From Hyphochytrium catenoides (lineage: Eukaryota; Sar; Hyphochytriomycetes; Hyphochytriales; Hyphochytriaceae), in NCBI GenBank assembly GCA_900088475.1, contig FLMG01000941.1, positions 55,914-88,214 on the forward strand: 32,301 nucleotides of DNA, in the 5' to 3' direction. Under the pieces are notes generated by a model, which was given only the letters and a program-made list of their open reading frames with translations, did not search any database and was not told the origin of the DNA. Position 1 is the stretch's first letter. The number at the start of each line of letters is the position of its first letter. This document shows positions 456 through 17,400 of the stretch, in pieces. A program made the translations under genes and the position numbers.

Positions 456-3400
456 ATGACCAAGGGCGGCCAAAAGAAGGAGAGAGAGAACGGACATAAT
501 AAAGCTGTAGCGTCCTCCTCCTGGAACTCCAACAGCAACAAACGACCAAACCAGGATGGCGCTGCCCCAAGCGCAAGCGCAGGGACAGGTGGAGCTTTGC
601 CGTTATCAGAACAGCAAGAAAAGCCAAAGCCTCGGCCTTCTTCGCCTCGCTCTTCTTCTCCCCCTGTCCACACCAATGGACTTGGCAAGCCTCCTGGGGA
701 GAGGAAAGGAAGGAGGGAACCAATAATGCGACAGGATTCACTCAGGACGAAACTGAGGAAATTGGCAATGGAGGAAGACTTTCCAGCCTCCGACGGCTTG
801 GACTCTAGCACAATCCTCTCACCGAAGATCAAGGACTGCACGATGGGTGATGGCTCTTCAGGCGTCTCTTCTCCTCCTCCCGCTCTCAAAGCAGGTGTGA
901 TTAGCTCTCCTTCTCGCACTTGGTTTATCATCGTTGCTTGACCCATCTTTCGGTCCTCCTCTTCCTTAGTTGCTAACGCTAGTTTCCTTGCTTCGAGTGG
1001 ACAAGCGTGCACACTCCCGTCTGGTGTTGCTCTACTTCGATTTTGCCGCGTTATCACCTCCATCCCATTTTCTTGCCTTGCTGGAAGCTTAGTACGCCCT
1101 CCTCTTATCCCCAAGATAGACTGATCGTCTCCTTTCGCTCTAGAGTTGTACAGCTTCGCCTCTTTCTCACTCCTTTCAACTTCTTGCTATAGGAAGTAAG
1201 GATCATACTTCTTTCTCTGTGAGGAAGAGAAAGCTCTTGAAGGCCGCAAAGGATATGAAGGAGATGGAGGCCACTAGCCCAGCGGCAACAGTCCCAACAT
1301 CTAAGGGTTCGCCAAGTGTCTCTCCGGGCCGCAAGGTGGACCGCTCTGCAAGCAAAAGTCCTTCTAGATTCGTGGAGGTTGCATCGTCGGTGGTGGCGAG
1401 CCGAAAAGGTTACTTCTTGCATCTCTTCTCATCTATTCTCTGGCCGTCTTTATCTTTACGGTTTACTACGTCACCTCTTGGCCCTCTTTGGTCTCTATAT
1501 CCTTTATCTCTGTACTATCGTTAGTCTCCCTTCTCTCTCGCGGCTCAAGAACCCTGCAGCTGTCTGTACACTTATTGCACTGTCGCTGTTCATAGTCGCT
1601 CTCGGGGTCTGCTTCTCATCTTCCCACTGTGTAGACTTGGGTGTACTTCTCTTAGGTTAACGCGTTTCACTGTCCTTTCTTCTTAAACGACTTGTTCAGA
1701 AACCTATGCTGCAGGGTGTTTAGCCTCGTTTGCTATATTCTCCTTGTCAAGTCATCTATCGCTTCCTTGGTCTAGGCCACACATCCTCTTTTCTATTGTC
1801 ATAGTGGGCCTCATATCTACCATAACCTTGGGCCTCATATCTCCTGACAATCGTCTTTTAAATCGCGTTGCTGTTTAGCTGCTCAGAAGTTCAAGTCAAG
1901 CTGGGTCAACCCTGCGGCTTCGCATCCCACAGACTGGTCGGTGGTGGGTGGGATCCACTTGAAGAAGAAGAAACTGAGTCTGCAGCAATTCTTTTCAGAG
2001 TATAGAAAGATGAAGAGAGATGACTTCTACCAGGAGTTGGTTGTCTACATCGTCGTCATCTACCTTATGATGTCTATGTTTTGGTGGCTACCTATGCACC
2101 AGGTTTGTTTAGCTTCTCCTAATCGCGCGACTACTGCGCATCACTCGTTGCTCAATAACTCTTCCTGGGACGACTGGACGCATGCCCTCATCGCTCCCTT
2201 CTCTTTTATGGGGCTTCGTAATCGGGGTCAATGTACGTACTTTGCCTAATTTTAACCGTATCCTTCTGGCACCCTCCGTCCATCGCAGAGTTATGAGCAA
2301 TCAGATGTCTTGAAAAGCTTCATTTGCAAGGAGGGAACGGAGGTCTGTTCCTTCGATACTGTGAACGACATATATGGCTTTCTTCGGCATATGGAGGAGA
2401 ACATCTGCGACGACTCAGACAGTGATGCCAATCTCCGGCGATGGTACCGGGTTGGGACGATGCAGGTAGGCGCAGAGGATTAGAGTGAGAGTAGAAAGAA
2501 GAAGAAAGAGGAAAAAGTCTAGAAGTGCCCCTTCTCCTCCATTTACGAAATATATGCTTTCCGGGCGCCTCCCTTACCATCTCAGCTCGTGGCTTCGTAT
2601 TGTTCTGCTATGGGTAAACACTGGTCCTCATTAAGCCCTCCATCTCTCTTCCTCTGCCTCTCCCTTTTTTTTTCTTTAGCTACGTCAAGTTCGAGTTCAA
2701 CGCTCTAACTGTCGGATAGCTGGTGCAGTAGAGTATCCGTGTTATCCGCAGTATAGCCCTGAGATAGAAGAGAGAGCAGCGATAGTAGGCAAGACGTCAG
2801 GGAAGAATTACACCTGGAGAGATGGCTTTGGAGAGTTGGAAACCACCACGCAAGTGCGCTTCCTCTCTGTGATTAACTATCTGCAAGCGGATGACGCCGT
2901 GCCAGACACTTTTGGACGTGGTAGGGAGTCTTCTGCCTACAGTCTCCCGAGACAAATCCCTAAAGCTAGTCTGCCCATTCTCGGTCTTGGGTCCAGTCTT
3001 TGTCTAGAACCTACGGCTCGTCCAACTCATTTCATTCTCCCATTCCGGTGCCTACATTAGCTCTTTTTCGCCCTGACGCTTCTACCTCTCTTTCAAAAAA
3101 ACAGGCGGCTTCTCCTCTTATCTATGTTCGAACTCGTCTCCCTCTGTCAGTGAGCTGGAGGAAGACCAGTGGATCAATCTTGGCACTCGTGTCGTGTCCT
3201 TGGATTTTACACTCGTGAACCCTACGACCGAAATGTTTACCGTGGGGAGGCATATATTTGCCATCTCTCCATCGGGACATATAAATCATAAGCTGCAGGT
3301 ACGGAAAGACAAATTATCTGTCTGGATCGCTGTTATTGGCTGCCGACAGCGTATATACAAGACCTTCTCTCTCTCGGCTACCAAGAGAGAAGGCGCAAAA

Positions 3401-4088
3401 CTTCTTCCTCTGCTAAGACGCTGGTCTTTACTTCACTTAACCTTTCATCTTTACCGCCTTTTCTTTCTCTTAATGCTCACGTGATCTTCCTTTCCTTGTT
3501 GATGGTAGACTACAACGATGAGGCTCGTCTCCACCTGGCTTGACGGACATCAGCAGAAGGCAGACCGTTATGTGTTCGCTCTATGGATCTTTCTCTCGCT
3601 TCAGCTACTTCTCACGTGTCTGAGAGAGAGCAAGAATATCAGAAAGATGGGGCTCTCTCCTTATTTGTCCTCAGACTTTTGGAATGTGTTTGAGATGATC
3701 CAGATGACTCTCCTAGCACAGCTCCTCTTCTCTGTGTACTCTTTCTACGCGCTCTCTTCTCAGCTCATAGATGGTCTGGGGCTTCTTTTGAAGACTTCCA
3801 ATGGATACGTTGATATGTACCCTGTCATGGACTCTTTTTTGCAGGTAAAGTTGCATTGCCAGAGAGGAATAGATATTGCCCTTAGTCTGCCTTCAGACCT
3901 GCATGATAGCTTCGTTTTTGTTGTCTCTCCTCCTTTCCCTTAGACTCATCCAGCTATCTTGGAAGACTAAAAGCACTGCTATCTTTTCGACCTTTCTCTC
4001 TTCTCTCCTTTTTCAATCTTTCTTTGTCGAATCTGTTGTCTCCGCTTTACCCCTCTGTCGCCCCCTCTCTCCCCCATTTCTCGCTCTT

Positions 4089-4123
<35 letters not shown>

Positions 4124-7100
4124 GTCTTTCTCTCTCACACACACAAACACGCACCCGCACCCCGCACTTCATGCGGCCTCATGTGTCGCTTCAGTTGGCG
4201 GATTTGGCGGCTGTCAACGCCTTGCTCGGCTTGCTCAAAGTCTTTCGCTTCCTCCGTATGAACACGACCCTCAACCTCCTTTGGGCATCTCTGGGGATGG
4301 CTCTCAAAGATCTGGCAGGGTTTATGGTCATCTTCTCCCTTATATTCTGCGCCTACGCGGCTATGGGATGCCTGGCTTTTGGCTTCTACCTTGCAGAGTT
4401 CCACGACTTCAGAAGCTCCTTCTCTACCTGCTTTCAGATGTTAGCTGGTGATTTTGATTATGAGAAGCTTCTGGAGGCAAACCCGAGACTAGCTCCGATA
4501 TTCTTTGGAAGCTTCGTAGTGCTCTGCCTGCAGATTCTGGTGAGCTGCAAGAGATAGAAATGGGTGGAGTGCGTCAGTAGCGGCTTGAGCGGAACACACA
4601 GCAACAGAAAGAAAGAGAGGAGGTGCAAGCGGGAAAAAGGAGTGGAGAATAAGGAGACAGACAAGAGGAAGAACTTCCCTCTGATTCCTCTTTGTCTATG
4701 CTATTTCCTTCTAGAATGCTCGTCTGCGGGCTGTGCCGGGTTGGTTTTATGGTGTTGTCGTGTTCTCTGACATAATCCGTTTCATGTCCTATCCAGGTGA
4801 ACATGTTTGTGGCAATTCTTTCCGAGTTCTATGAAAAGAGCAGGGATGAGGCTCAGAACCTGAAGGATGTGGACGTGGAGTACGACGTCTATAAGCGTAT
4901 CTCAGAGTTCCTCCTCTCTCTCTCACCCACGGTGGTCCTTACTGAGCCCTTGCAGCTCAGTCCTGGGGAGATCGTGCGCCTTATCTCCACCAATCTTATG
5001 GACAAAGAGGTCAAGCGCCAGAGGGCAAAGAAGAGGTTCAGGGGCGCTGTGTGGAGAGTCCTGGCACTCCTGAGGTTAGCGTCCTTTCATTTTTTCTGAC
5101 TTTCCCCTCATCTTTCCGCCCTCTCACTTATTCTTTGTCTCTCTCCTTTTCCTTGTATGAGCATTCACTATCTTTTTGAAAATATAATGTCACTCATTCT
5201 TCTCTTGCATTGACTTATCTCTGCCTGCTCAAGAGCTGCTCACCCGTCCGCTGGCTGTGCTAAAGTTATCCCTTAATGCTTGTCCCTTTCTGGCCGGGCT
5301 TCGTTCCTTTTCAAGCTTTCGAGCAATGACCGCGGACCCTGGGTTCGCGTTCAAACTTATGATGGCTAACTGCTTGCATTTTGCCAACAGGTTTGGCGTC
5401 AAGTTTGATCGCCGCCTGATCACTGACCAGCATCGGGAGACGAGCTATGATCCGAGCGATAAGGAGTTGGCGACTCACATTCCTCTCTCAGATAATTTTG
5501 ACCATCGCACCATCAAGGAGATGCTGCCTGCCGGGATCACTATCAAGCTAAAGGGAGACTCGCTCATTGGAGACGACATTACTTTGAAGGTTGTAAGGCA
5601 CAGCGCCTTGTCCACAGAGTGCAAAGGTACGCCAGCGAGAATACTTGAGAGAAACCCATGGCGGAAAGGAGTCAAGAGTTGCTGAGGCACGTAGAAGTGG
5701 AGAGATTCACGCACTCAACCTACGTTTAAGTGCATGAAGCTGACAGAGGGAATAGTGTTGACAGCTCATACCTTTCGTTACATGCTTTGTGTCTTGATAT
5801 GCTTTCGTTCCCCATTTTGCCTCTTATGAGGTGGACGTTCGGCCTTATCCCTCTGTATGGCCCTTGTATGAGCCTACGTATGTCGCTGCTGACTCCTGCT
5901 CACTTTCTTCTCCATTGTCTTTCTTGCAGTTATGGACTCCGTCTATCCCGGGATCGAGAGTCTTGAACTCGTAGGAGGAGAAAGGTTGATCATTCCCTCA
6001 ACTCTCTTCTGTCTTCACCTCCTCCGCACGGCGTTCAAGGTCCTCTTACACTTTATTGGGAAGGCGTTCTCCTGGCGCCACCCTATGGACCACCAGTTGG
6101 TAGACGAGTATCTGCTGTATAGATTGCTTCAAAGCGCTCAACACGAGGGATGCGAATCTCTCCGGTTTGATGAACTGCATAGAAGGCTGGACATGATCGT
6201 GAGGAAGGATAGGAGTCGAGCCACTATATCTGCGGGAGAAGTTAACAAGGAGACAGCGCTGGTAATGTACCGCTTCAGACGGTGTCTGATTGACATGCCC
6301 AGCAGAGAGAAAGAAGGCCACAACTACAGGCCAAAGCCTCTCGATACCTCTTCAGTGGATCTTGGATCCTTGGAGTTTTTAGCAGATCTTCTATCGGAGA
6401 ATTGTCACGAGCTTTGGTCGCTCGAGAGAATCAAGCAAGGGTGGAGATATGGCCCTGAGAGAGATGACAAAAAGAAGCTGCATCCCAATCTGATCCCTTT
6501 CCATGTTCTTCCTGAGGAAGAGAAAGAGTATGATCGTCGCACATCTGTGGAAAGCATCAAGACTATCCTGATGCTGCAGTTCCAGATCCAGCGAGTCTCC
6601 ACAGCCACGCTTAAGACGAAGGGATTGCCAACGTTTGACACCGTGAGAAAGCTCACTTCTTCCTCAGAAGGGGATGATGGTAAGGTAGCAGGCGTTTAGG
6701 GTCTTAGCTCTTTCGTGCCTTATGTATGTGGTGGTTGCCCTTGCTTCCAAGGCCTCTATAGTGCTTGATCCACTCTTTATCTCTACCACCTGTTTCCCTC
6801 TTGATATGGTTTCCTCGTGGCTCTCTTCGTGTCTCCTCTCTCTTTGCTAACCCACTCTCTCTGTCATGTGCCCTGACTTTCTTTCTGCTCATGACCCACG
6901 TGTTCCTACTAGCCAATACCGAGATCGATTCGATCAACGGTACCAAGTACCGTCCTCGTCCCATAGAGACCGACCAGATTGACTTGCCTAAACGGTTGGT
7001 AGCTCTCGCAGATCTTATAGCTGAGAACGCGCATGAGGTCTGGTCTAAAGGAAGGATGGAGGAGGGCTGGACCTACGGGCCCGATAGAGATGACAAGGCC

Positions 7101-7235
7101 AAGAAACACCCTTGTCTAGTGCCCTACGTGTTCCTTACTGAGCACGAGAAAGAGTATGACCTCAACACTGCGATGGGAACACTGAAGATGCTTCTGGCGA
7201 TGGGCTTTCAGATCACCGACAAGACGGGTGGATAG
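456..7235 (+). CDS. polycystin-2 (TRPP)-like cation channel with two C-terminal RyR domains
   Basis: Predicted six-helix cation channel of the polycystin/TRPP family, 1252 residues, in a cellular membrane. Exons: 456-894, 1193-1408, 1879-2102, 2289-2465, 2680-2920, 3105-3298, 3509-3844, 4195-4539, 4797-5074, 5391-5626, 5930-6679, 6913-7235; all introns are GT-AG and all phases match. The start is the first ATG of the open frame. Order: basic, Ser/Pro-rich N-terminus (1-235); first membrane helix in exon 3; extracellular polycystin domain in exons 3-6, including LRQVRVQRSNC and WINLGTRVVSLDFTLVN; further helices in exons 7-8; pore region with FQMLAGDFDY (exon 8); last helix running into NMFVAILSEFYEKS (exon 9). 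After a linker come two RyR-type domains at about 1028-1115 and 1157-1248, each with the HxxWxxxRxxxGWxYGPxRDD and HPxLxPxxxL pattern. RyR domains normally sit in ryanodine receptors, so the join is unusual. Retaining the last intron would end translation at 6699 with one RyR copy. The N-terminal two exons are the least certain. Confidence 0.9.
4081..4150 (+). repeat. CT then CA dinucleotide tract in channel intron 7
   Basis: A CT run broken twice by GTCTTT passes directly into a short ACAC run, about 45 bases before the exon 8 acceptor at 4193-4194. It lies on the sense strand of the channel gene, where it extends the polypyrimidine tract of the intron. Confidence 0.85.
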
Positions 7236-7886
7236 GTAACACCAGTCAATGAGAAGGAGAGAAGACGTTGACTCCTTCTTCTAAGACCAAAGCAGACGTC
7301 TTTTGAGAAGACAAGTACTATCATAGAGCTTTAACTTAAGGATGATTTATACAATCTTTTCAGCATAGAGAACCACGGAAAGCATTGCGTGGAATGTCAC
7401 TAGTTAGAACGGAAAGCGGTAGGTGACGACTGCTTCTAATGGTTTCGACAGAGAGTCAGAGGGAGATGAGCACTCTATGGCTAGAAAGAGAAGTATGCTT
7501 TTGTGGATGTGTACAGCGATGAAGGTGAGCAGCCAGCAAGAGAGAGAAGGCGAGAAGGTTTTAGCTGCCGATAGAGGCCGTGTAGGGCCCAGTAACTCTA
7601 TCAAGGCCAAAAGACGGAAAGGAAAGAGGTCTTGGCTCTCCAGCTTTAAGAGGGGAGCCAAAAAGCTTGCGCTACGTAGTGGCTCTGCTGTTGACAACAG
7701 GATATAGTGGAAAGATAGGGCTCTGCGTTCCTACCGACGGTTAAGATGACAGATCATCCTGACTGCTGCTTCTGCGCAGCAGAATAAATAGAAATACGTA
7801 ACAAACGGTCGCCACTGAGCTCTCTCTTCCTCTCGACCTTCCTGTTCCTCCTTCTGTCCTTTGTCTCTTCGTTTCTATGGTTAAAA
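7236..7886. other. convergent spacer between channel and receptor-like genes
   Basis: This 651-base spacer lies between two gene 3' ends and should hold both 3' untranslated regions. An AATAAA hexamer occurs at 7783-7788 on the + strand. A 94-codon + frame (7423-7707) encodes a Lys/Arg-rich peptide of no recognised family and is more likely 3' untranslated sequence than a gene. Confidence 0.5.
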
Positions 7887-10800
7887 TCAAATCTTATCCA
7901 TCAGCTGCTCTGCAGCCCTGCCGATTAGCTCCGCTGTTGTTTGGATCGATCCTTTGAGCTCGTCGATGGATTCACCGTGTGCCGCTTCAGCGATGAGAGG
8001 GAAGGGCACCATATTCTTGTTGTTGTCTCTGCAAAGGGCACGAGTTAGTAGAGTATGGCAGACGGAGAGTATAACGAGCAGGTGAAAAGAAAGAGAGAGG
8101 AAGTCAGAGACAGAGAAACAGCAAGAGTGAGTTTACTCATAGAATGGACCTGTTGCAAGGACCAAAAACCTAAGAGCACCACATGCCACGAACGCATAAG
8201 CTCCGTGTAAGAGGAGAAAGCTGTGCACCTTCGCTGCTTCCTAGAAGTCTATCCAACCCATCTGTCTCTCCCCCTGTCGCCCTCTTTCTGTGTTCAGACC
8301 TACCTGTCTGGGGCCAGAAGTCCGTAGCGGTACCAGGGCCGAGAAGGGAGCCCATTCGGGAGAAGAAATTGCCTAATCACCAGAAAGGTCAGAGGGTCAA
8401 GTTCACCAGAAGTACGGCCGCAGAGAGCCATGCGTCAAGATTGTAGAACGTCTAAGAGAACTCCCCGCAGGAGTGAGCTTGACGAACGCGCGGGTGACGC
8501 GCTATGCAGTATGTCAAGAATCTAAAGAGGGAGAAAAGCTAGAAGCGAAAGCAGAGAACAGCGCCGCTAAAGTAATGAGCGATTCGGCTCAGGGAGTAAC
8601 GCAAGCGGTTGCTAGCGTGACGAAGCCTCTAGCAACAGTAAAAAAACGAAAGTACAGCGCACTAGTGGGGAGCCCGTAGGAAGAAAAAAGAGAAGGGGGG
8701 GATCTATAAGGGCACTTTTGGGTCTCACCTCTCTAGGGTCAAAATGCGATGATTAACGGCTCTCACAGCCCCAGAGAGGGCGACGGTCCCGTCCGTAGCA
8801 ATGGAAGCTCGCAACTCCTCGGCCCCCCGATGGAAGGAAGTGGCGGCATTCCGGAAAGACTCGATTGTCGCCAAGAGAGAGGAGAACGACGCATTAAGAG
8901 TCTCTTTCTCTTTCTCCCACTTATTATCCTTTTGTATGGCTGCCACGACTGCCTCAGCTTCTACCTTCAACTTATTCGCATATCTGGCAGCAGAAAGAAA
9001 CATTTGGCGGCAAGCAGAAGAGGGAGACAGAACATGAGGGCTGAAGAAAGCAAACAAATGAAGCAATAGTAGTGCGAACTCTGAGTCCTATCAGAGCTCA
9101 GGGAGTTTTGTGGCTATGAGGAGCTGAGTTACGCCTGGGGAAAGCCTCTTGGATAGCTGGTAGTTGTTCCCTCAACCCTCGTCACTTCCATTTGTGGCCC
9201 TTCGCCTACTTTATTTTGTCTCCTTACCTAAAGAAGCCGAACGGCAGCAAGGGGTTGTCCGCTAGAGAGATCACTATGTGCCCAAGGAGTTCCGTCGCTC
9301 GCTTGTGATACTCCAGACCATGATTATCAGAGAACTGAAGCACCCACGCTCTGTTATCCTGAACTGAGGCACTGACCCCAAAATATCCGCCTTCAAAGCC
9401 TAAGTCAAGCGATGGAACAGCAGAGTGCGAGAGAAGCGGAGGGAAGGAGCCACGAGAGCCAATAGCGAGAATAGTAGCCTCTTCCTTCTTGGGACTGAAG
9501 GATGGCTTCGCCGCGGGGTTAGCATGCAGCCACACGTCATAGACCGAGGCCCCAGCTGCCATAGTATCCCCTATAAGTAGATTAGCAGTAACAATTAGAG
9601 AAATGAGTGACGAAAGACAGAAAGCTGAGGCAGTGGATTTATCCAACTGACTAGAGAGGTCAACTATCGGTCGCGATCTCGGTAGAATACAGGCATATCG
9701 ACTCCAGATCGCAATAGAAGAAAGAAGCAAGTCTATAGGCGGCCAGAAGTCAGGAGGAAAGCATTTTCCAGGCTACGGGTTCTTTACCTGGCGGGTCTTG
9801 TGCCGCCTGAGTTACCGGTGCTGACTTGACGCTTCTCCTGCCTTTATCATCCTTCTGGCCCTCTTTCGCTAATGTGCTCTGCGAGACGTTGGCCATAGGT
9901 TGCGGAACCAGCCTTGCAACCTCGTAGACGAGATCAACAAGGCTTTGTGAGACAGAGGCCTGTAACGGACCTTGCCCAGCCACCACTGTGTGGAGCCATG
10001 AGGGGAGGAAGAGAGAGAGAGAGACTAGTGAGGCCACAAAGACAGAGCTCTAAGATTAACTTGGACACAGAACCCACCCAGCACTAGAAAAGAAGCTAGA
10101 GGGAACTAACCATTAGTAAAACGTACAGACTATGTTATCCTCGCAGTACGGAAGTTATTCCGGCTTTTTACCTCTATCGACATTAATGTAGGCAACAGCT
10201 CTGCCTTCGAGTGCCACCTGATGCTTCTTAATCCATTCGGACTGGCCTAAAGCTCCATAAGCTCCCCCATCCCAAGAGGCCAGAAGAATTGTTCTCTTGG
10301 GAATCCAGCCGCCTGTTTTTATCCAAACAAAGAAGCATACCGGGCAAAGAAAGTCAGTAAAGGTCTGCATAGGTTACCGATACATAGGATTGATACATGT
10401 AGAAAGTGTGTTGCTCTAAGCAGAGGGTATGCCCAGCCCAACGATAATGACTCGGGTCCCAATAATGCCTAGAGAGAGCCTCAACCGCCAATAAGGTTAC
10501 CTTTCTTGAGCTTCCCAAATATCCTGGCCATCTCCAGCAGCACAGACGACCCACTCCCAGGGTCAGCGGCGCCCGACAGGGAGTCTCGCTGGTTACCTAT
10601 GATTACCACTTGGTCCGGATACCATTCCCCAGGAATCTTCGCGATAACGTTCCGGATCTTCTTCACCTAATTCCACGATAAGGCACTATTTGGAGTGCAC
10701 CGAGGGATAACACTTGCCGAGAGACATGGCAGCGGAGAAAGTCCTAGACTAGAAAGGGAAGGACCGACTGAAGCGACAGACATGAAAGAGGCAAGACTAA

Positions 10801-14434: not shown

Positions 14435-17400
14435 TTAAGCATTGACTTTTCCTAGCCCTGATATCGCTGCATTTCTATAGGCTTCGGCAAGGGTAGGATA
14501 GTTAAACACTGAGGAGCGAAGCAGCTCGATCGTCGCGTCCTGAGCCATCAAAGCCTGGCCGATGTGAATGATCTCGGTGGCGCCCTCGCCAATGCAATGT
14601 GCGCCTAAGAGCTATTTGCATAAAGGACAGTTAGCAAGAGTGATGAACGGACGGACACGAGACTCTCTCAAAAGAAGGCGCAAAGGATGCGGACATCAAC
14701 TTCATGGAGGTCTATGAGACGATAACCTACGAAAAGGTAGGCGCAGGTAGTGGTTGCGAGCGTGACAAAAACTTAGCGAGAGAAAAAGGAAATTTGCAAG
14801 TCAAACCTTCAGAGTTTTCCGGTCAAAAATCAGCTTCAAGAACCCGTCTGCGCCGCCCAACATCTGCCCTCTCGCCAGCTCACCGTATCGTGAAATGCCC
14901 ACCTGCGCCGGAACGGCCGTCCCAGATCAGACAGACAGAGAGAGAAAACGCGACAGTGTTGGCAGAAGAAGAGGGACGACAGAGCAAGGGGAAATGGTTC
15001 TACCGCCCGAGGAGTTGGGACAACAGCTGAGAATACATAGATTTACCCTCAATCGCAGAGAGGACTGGTCAAGAAGTAGGGAGAAGACGCGAGAAGTAGA
15101 ATGCAAAGAGCAGCGACAGGGCGGACGCACCTCATAATCTATTCCTTCCGCCGTGAGCTGTTCTTCAGACTTGCCAATCATAGATATCTCGGGGATGGTG
15201 TAGATTCCATAGGGGAAAATATTCTTCCGGAAGCTGTACTTGTCGTCACGCAGCTGTGGGGCACAGAGGAAGAAAGCTGCGATGAGCCAGGAAAGCACAG
15301 AAAGCAAGGCCCAGCCAGGGCGTGGATGGTTGACCACAGCAAACACGTAGAAATGGATCCTTTCTTCCATAATAGAGGTAGGAGAAGACAATCCTGGCCT
15401 AAAGATAAGTGGAAACCCTTGACAACAATGATCCAGAGACTTGGAAACGGTTAGGCCTACCTCGTCTGGGTTCCACATATGAACTGAAGCCAGCCGCCCC
15501 TGCTCCATAGACGTGGAGGCAAGAGCTGGATACCCTATGCAATCACCAGCCGCATAGCTGAAAGACAATAGTCCCCGAAGAGTCGCCACAAGGGAGGAAG
15601 AGCGGAACGAGAGAGAAGTGGCAGATTAGATTGAAGAGACTCACAGTGAGGACACTAGGCCCCATGGCATGCAGCATGCCAGAGGAAGAGACTAGCAAGG
15701 TCCTGCCGGTCCTGCCGAGGAAGCTCACGTAGCAGTGGAGAGAGATAATACTCAGGATCCCTAGTCGACTGAAAGAGAGAGGGCACGAGGTTACGGATAG
15801 CTCCTTACATCCAGGGCTTGGCAGTTTGATAGTTGTCATCCACAGAGATAAGTCCTCTCTTGTTTACTGTCAGTCCGACAGCCTCAAGATTCAGGGCGTC
15901 CGTGTTAGCCTGCCGCCCCACAGAGTAGAGAAGCCCAAAGCCGCTCAAGTGTTTACCGCTACTCAGCTGAACATCAACCACGCCGTTTGAAACCTAACCG
16001 CGATTATTCGGGAAGAAGGACGAGGGTGAGCAAGCCAGATAAGCTACACCGAAGAACCACACCGCTGACGAGCAGGCTAGACGTAGAGAGAACAAGAAAT
16101 TTGACAATAGGTTGAGGTTCCATTGACGTTATGCAGAGATTGTCAAATGGGTGGAATCGCCAGGAACAGGTGAAGGTCAGAGCAACTTGCTCTAGAGACC
16201 AGTCTAGAGAGTGAAGAAAAAAGTTAAGCAAAAGATAGTGAAAGTCTGTTCGAGAAGCATTCTTCCCTACCTTGGCGCTAACAACGTTCTCATTGAAGAG
16301 AAAACGAGCACCACGCGCTCTCATGGTTTGGGTAAGGAACTCCACCACCTCACGGTCAGCAAAGTCCAGGATCTTCATAATAAAAAGCATAGAATGGGTA
16401 TGTGAGAGCTGACGTTGACGAGCTACCCAACAGGGCACAGGGCAGAGAACACGGTCTATCATAGGGATGGTAAAGCACACCGGACGTGTCTTACAGATAG
16501 TCGCACCACCAAAGAGATGGGAGCCGAGCAAATGAAGGCAAGAGGAAAAGCGCTGCATGGCAGTATCCTTCGCAAGGCAAAGCACTTGCGGGAAGAATAA
16601 GTCATTCATCGATGGAGAGCGTGCCTACCGATTTTCTGGGGTCCACCACTGTAACCTTTGTCCCTGATATAATGTTAAACATGGAGGCGTACTCGATTCC
16701 AATGACTCCGGCACCCACGACTATCAAGTGCTTCGGTACTCTTTTGATCTTTCCAAAAAGAATCTAATGTACAGAAGACGCCGGAAGGAGGGAGCGAGAG
16801 AGTCCCGAGTGAATGTGAGAGACACAAAAGAGAGGTTCAACACGTGCCCTAGACAAACCAATACCAGCAGAGACCAGAGAGGAGGCGAGAGAAGATGCTA
16901 AGTGTATTGATTAACCTGATCAGAGTCGAATATATACTCTCCATCGAATTCAATGTCGTCCCGCCGCGCTGGCCGCGTACCCACAGCCACCAAATACTGT
17001 GCAGGAGAGGATCATTAGTCCAGAGCCAGACAAGTAGAGCCGGAAAGGAAAAACGACTGAGATCTGCAACCCACGTGGGAGATAAGTGAAAATCGGCAAC
17101 GAGAAGCCTTGAAACAGACCGATTAAGGGCCAGTAAAGAGAGTCAGGAGGCAGCAGAAAGAGTAAGGAATATGACCTTGTCTGCTGAAAGAATTCGCGTG
17201 ACGTTCGCCGACTGGATGTGCCTGTGAGCGTCGGCTGGCATGCGCCGCGTGCTCTGATTATCATCCTGTGCGCCACGTGAGAACAGTCTTTTACTCTGCT
17301 TTACTCCCCTCTCTCTCTCTCTTCTTCTCACTGCAGGCTCTCTCTCTCTCTCTCTCTCTCTCTCCCCGGGTCTCTGCCTGCAGTGTTTTCTTGACTTCAT

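Follow-up and report, generated by a model that had tools for sequence, protein, structure and literature searches.

This locus raises the question of whether a polycystin-type pore and a pair of ryanodine receptor (RyR) domains are encoded by one gene, and of what such a tail may do for the channel. It lies in a 32,301-nucleotide stretch of contig FLMG01000941.1 of Hyphochytrium catenoides (hereafter, the window), where an initial annotation had placed a TRPP channel fused to two tandem RyR domains at positions 4195..7235. Sequence comparison confirmed a TRPP pore with two RyR domains on the tail after S6, in one spliced gene, and identified this gene as a new member of the published PKDRR family that falls within the definition of subfamily B.

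Gene structure and domain content

Twelve exons on the plus strand of the window (456..7235), all bounded by GT-AG introns and matched in phase, join into a single frame of 1252 amino acids. The model was built from the genomic sequence and its start codon is provisional. The gene first annotated is present, including the GT-AG, in-phase junctions 5074|5391, 5626|5930 and 6679|6913, but it is longer than the interval given for it, and its exon 9 starts at 4797. The E-values below are those obtained with the individual exon frames.

456..894, plus strand: exon 1, N-terminal region with the provisional start codon; GT donor, phase 1 out
1193..1408, plus strand: exon 2, N-terminal region, from the splice model
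1879..2102, plus strand: exon 3, IHLKKKKL segment, similar to one in the relatives' consensus, and first hydrophobic helix
2289..2465, plus strand: exon 4, in which the polycystin (TOP) domain starts (Polycystin_dom, residues 324-503)
2680..2920, plus strand: exon 5, polycystin domain, from the splice model and Pfam on the whole model
3105..3298, plus strand: exon 6, end of the polycystin domain (Polycystin_dom 7.7e-10)
3509..3844, plus strand: exon 7, transmembrane helices ahead of the pore (PKD_channel from residue 520)
4195..4539, plus strand: exon 8, pore domain (PKD_channel 1.5e-24; best PDB match polycystin-2, 2.6e-18)
4441..4452, plus strand: candidate selectivity filter LAGD, of the B-type AG(D/E) form in PMC7399828
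4797..5074, plus strand: exon 9, last part of S6 and first part of the cytosolic linker
5391..5626, plus strand: exon 10, linker, from the splice model
5930..6679, plus strand: exon 11, linker followed by the SLRFDEL module and R1
6151..6276, plus strand: SLRFDEL module, common to glaucophyte-type proteins by profile comparison (41 aligned columns)
6325..6591, plus strand: RyR domain R1 (PF02026; Pfam 5.7e-29)
6913..7235, plus strand: exon 12, R2 (the second RyR domain), then the stop codon
6948..7217, plus strand: RyR domain R2 (PF02026; Pfam 1e-34)

A 294-residue open frame on the minus strand (305-1186) lies antisense to exon 1.

When the whole translated model was searched against Pfam, both halves scored above their cut-offs: PKD_channel (PF08016) with 105.5 bits (cut-off 22.4) at residues 520-737, Ion_trans with 54.8 bits (cut-off 25), Polycystin_dom with 54.0 bits (cut-off 23.6), and RyR, in two stretches, with 212.7 bits (cut-off 27.4), the best of them at 1158-1247. 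The protein contains the polycystin (TOP) domain and the PKD channel that characterize TRPP channels, and its filter is LAGD instead of the LGD of PKD2; the PKD2 chains matched among polycystin-2/PKD2L1 structures have no RyR domains. The RyR frames match ryanodine receptors in the PDB. None of the RIH, MIR and ITPR domains that build the body of RyR and IP3R was found in the 1252-residue model (Pfam, E<=0.1), and the GGG(I/V)GD filter of those channels is absent from its pore.

A search with residues 940-1252, which covers the tail, yielded 119 proteins, 48 of which (P0001-P0047 and P0050) carry PF08016 together with PF02026; organism names, where shown among the 48, are all oomycete (Phytophthora, Pythium, Albugo, Saprolegnia, Aphanomyces and others). 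That pore and tail belong to one protein is supported by these homologues, which combine the two halves, and by the alignment, which carries on over every junction between exon 8 and exon 12. It is very improbable that the splice model has misjoined two neighbouring genes, one for a polycystin and the other for an RyR-domain protein: introns of 316, 303 and 233 bases do separate exons 9 to 12, but all the phases match and the PKDRR B of P. infestans is predicted from two exons, compared with the 12 of the window gene (PMC7399828). A transcript break between exons 9 and 11, which had been named as the sign of two separate genes, is unlikely since the homologues are single proteins.

Membership of PKDRR subfamily B

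RyR domains had been described as not known from polycystins, a claim of novelty that fails because Zheng, Mackrill and colleagues had already given this architecture, a PKD channel followed by two RyR domains, the name PKDRR (PMC4820453, PMC7399828), and the later paper divides the family into two subfamilies (Zheng et al. 2020; PMC7399828). The 2016 paper reports PKDRRs in all nine oomycete genomes it covers (PMC4820453), and both papers state that they occur in oomycetes only (PMC4820453, PMC7399828); PKDRRs have been put forward as oomycete-only drug targets. A cell-surface location and a multimeric state are published for P. infestans only. Antibodies against a P. infestans PKDRR labelled the cell surface, with the caveat that the band ran at 101 kDa against 159 kDa and that the signal from one of the three antisera was not strong; no stimulus was found in the functional study consulted (PMC7399828).

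The window protein has the PKD channel domain of subfamily B, a tandem pair of RyR domains close to its C-terminus, and 5 residues after the last RyR match (which ends at 1247 of 1252), where the definition calls for fewer than 10. The candidate filter LAGD fits AG(D/E), the filter of PKDRR B, the published filter of PKDRR A being LGA (PMC7399828). These features, together with the Polycystin domain, are shared with PKDRR B of P. infestans and other oomycetes, and P0001-P0047 are 45-64% identical to the window protein over 39-100% of residues 940-1252. Another protein, P0244 of Phytophthora citrophthora, is named 'Ryanodine receptor 3'; Pfam lists only the RyR domain and no channel for it, and the name looks wrong.

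Glaucophyte-type relatives

One of the 48 matches with both halves, P0050, was an outlier with 31% identity. Used as a query, it returned seven matches including itself, five of which (P0050, P0240-P0243) combine PKD with RyR domains; the record of P0240 carries taxid 38269, that of the glaucophyte Gloeochaete wittrockiana, and Pfam confirmed the channel and two RyR stretches in P0240, P0242 and P0243. A literature search found no report of a glaucophyte PKDRR. The case for PKDRRs as drug targets confined to oomycetes is weaker if, as recorded, a glaucophyte has a relative.

The five glaucophyte-type proteins share with the window protein the domain order, an SLRFDEL-like module and the two RyR domains, but their linker is longer and largely unalignable, their filter is IGG(D/N/T) or LGGG, and their R2 is without the RDD Arg. 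Overall identity between P0003 and four of the five is about 26%. Outside the channel and RyR domains, hhalign joined the two groups only in the 41-column SLRFDEL module (probability 57%, P 1.1e-4, against 0.1% for a reversed control). Ahead of R1, the motif R[FY]DE[LVIM] occurs in 50 PKD-channel proteins (44 of the 47 P0001-P0047, P0080 and all five of the glaucophyte type) and in none of 72 RyR-domain proteins that have no PKD channel (P0048-P0119 minus P0050 and P0080, plus P0244 and P0245).

The module match and the confinement of the motif to PKD-channel proteins lead us to favour, on the sequences compared, a single fusion at the origin of the oomycete and glaucophyte-type proteins. The RyR-domain tree speaks neither for nor against this view: being poorly resolved, it joins neither the R1 domains of the two groups nor their R2 domains, which, like the mostly unalignable linker, would also suit a polycystin having acquired RyR domains independently in each group. 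The identical order of parts and the presence of two RyR domains in both groups, besides the module and the motif, make independent origins rather improbable.

RyR tail and proposed mechanism

Structure prediction of the tail, which had been suggested as a check, covered the relatives P0003 and P0242. In both models R1 and R2 pack as one clamshell resembling Repeat12, the nucleotide-binding part of ryanodine receptors, with overlapping scores for Repeat34, and the P0003 model has a fold match to PKD2. Among the Repeat12 residues that stack on adenine (Trp) or bind phosphate, counterparts of W880, K884, R895 and W994 are kept, but that of R1018 is absent from the PKDRR tail. The phage RyDEP proteins share the RyR-domain fold, with the HxxW, the HP His and a later Asp equally spaced (34/34 in both repeats for the His/Asp pair), but they form a homodimer with no channel and bind 2'/3'cADPR or, in one member, cleave them (PMC13232231).

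These likenesses suggest, tentatively and with slightly less than an even chance, a PKDRR-B channel whose clamshell binds a nucleotide and gates the pore. The parts of such a channel are read in order in one frame (TOP domain, channel with the LAGD filter, linker, SLRFDEL module, R1 and R2). The protein is a TRPP cation channel, probably multimeric like PKD2, with its cytosolic tail ending in the tandem RyR unit. The two HxxW tryptophans of the clamshell may hold an adenine nucleotide between them (ATP/ADP, or else ADP-ribose, linear or cyclic), and closing of the clamshell would act through the SLRFDEL module and the linker to open or shut the pore, which, once open, would let cations enter the cell from outside. 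The mechanism would broadly resemble that of TRPM2, which works with an ADP-ribose-binding tail.

The RyR pair could instead serve protein-protein contact, as an anchor or a brace between subunits of a PKDRR-B channel, and not as a ligand sensor. We consider this a substantial but lesser possibility; RyR1 structures led the PKDRR authors to propose it (PMC4820453), and Repeat34 of RyRs, which has the same fold, is found in a PDB entry as a phosphorylation domain complexed with PKA. Returning to nucleotide binding, the Repeat12 match names a concrete ligand class and, if correct, would connect a polycystin pore with signalling by NAD derivatives. It is a speculative and rather unlikely extension that PKDRRs at large are polycystins gated by nucleotides or (cyclic) ADP-ribose through a Repeat12-like tail, the product of one ancient fusion kept in oomycete-like stramenopiles and glaucophytes, perhaps retaining the RyDEP-type His/Asp pair. 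This testable nucleotide hypothesis and the glaucophyte branch lift the locus above a routine annotation.

On this extended reading, proteins with TIR domains could supply the ligand in the host: the assembly contains 11 TIR_2 matches above the PF13676 cut-off, at L016 (G000:C296:18860-19207) and elsewhere. The best of these matches sits in a 663-residue open frame with repeated segments.

The host genome

A second host locus (G000:C69; L006, L007), on the minus strand at about 4400-10400, encodes an intron-rich PKD channel with two RyR domains. It is perhaps a PKDRR A paralog, by sequence A-like at most because its filter is LVGA, whereas the published A filter is LGA. Across the 42.5-Mb assembly, the only PKD_channel matches (3, out of 8 candidates) fall at these two loci, a lower bound given the six-frame search.

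PKDRR trees put the window protein near oomycetes. Rooted on three glaucophyte-type rows, one tree has it diverging ahead of P0002, P0003 and the named oomycetes (85/92, short of strong support), and another groups it with P0002 and P0003 (96/94). For the host COX2, the nearest named record is Paralagenidium karlingii (67%), other groups being at 62-65%. From these sequences the host is tentatively regarded as an oomycete or a stramenopile closely related to oomycetes. One COX2 copy (L014 1174-2496, G000:C402) has a long C-terminal extension, 440 residues in total, and matches to COX1 and COX2 with identical scores occur on both C402 and C1105. Elsewhere in the window, the minus strand at 14930-15625 has a sub-threshold Pyr_redox_dim match (21.7 bits, cut-off 25.3).
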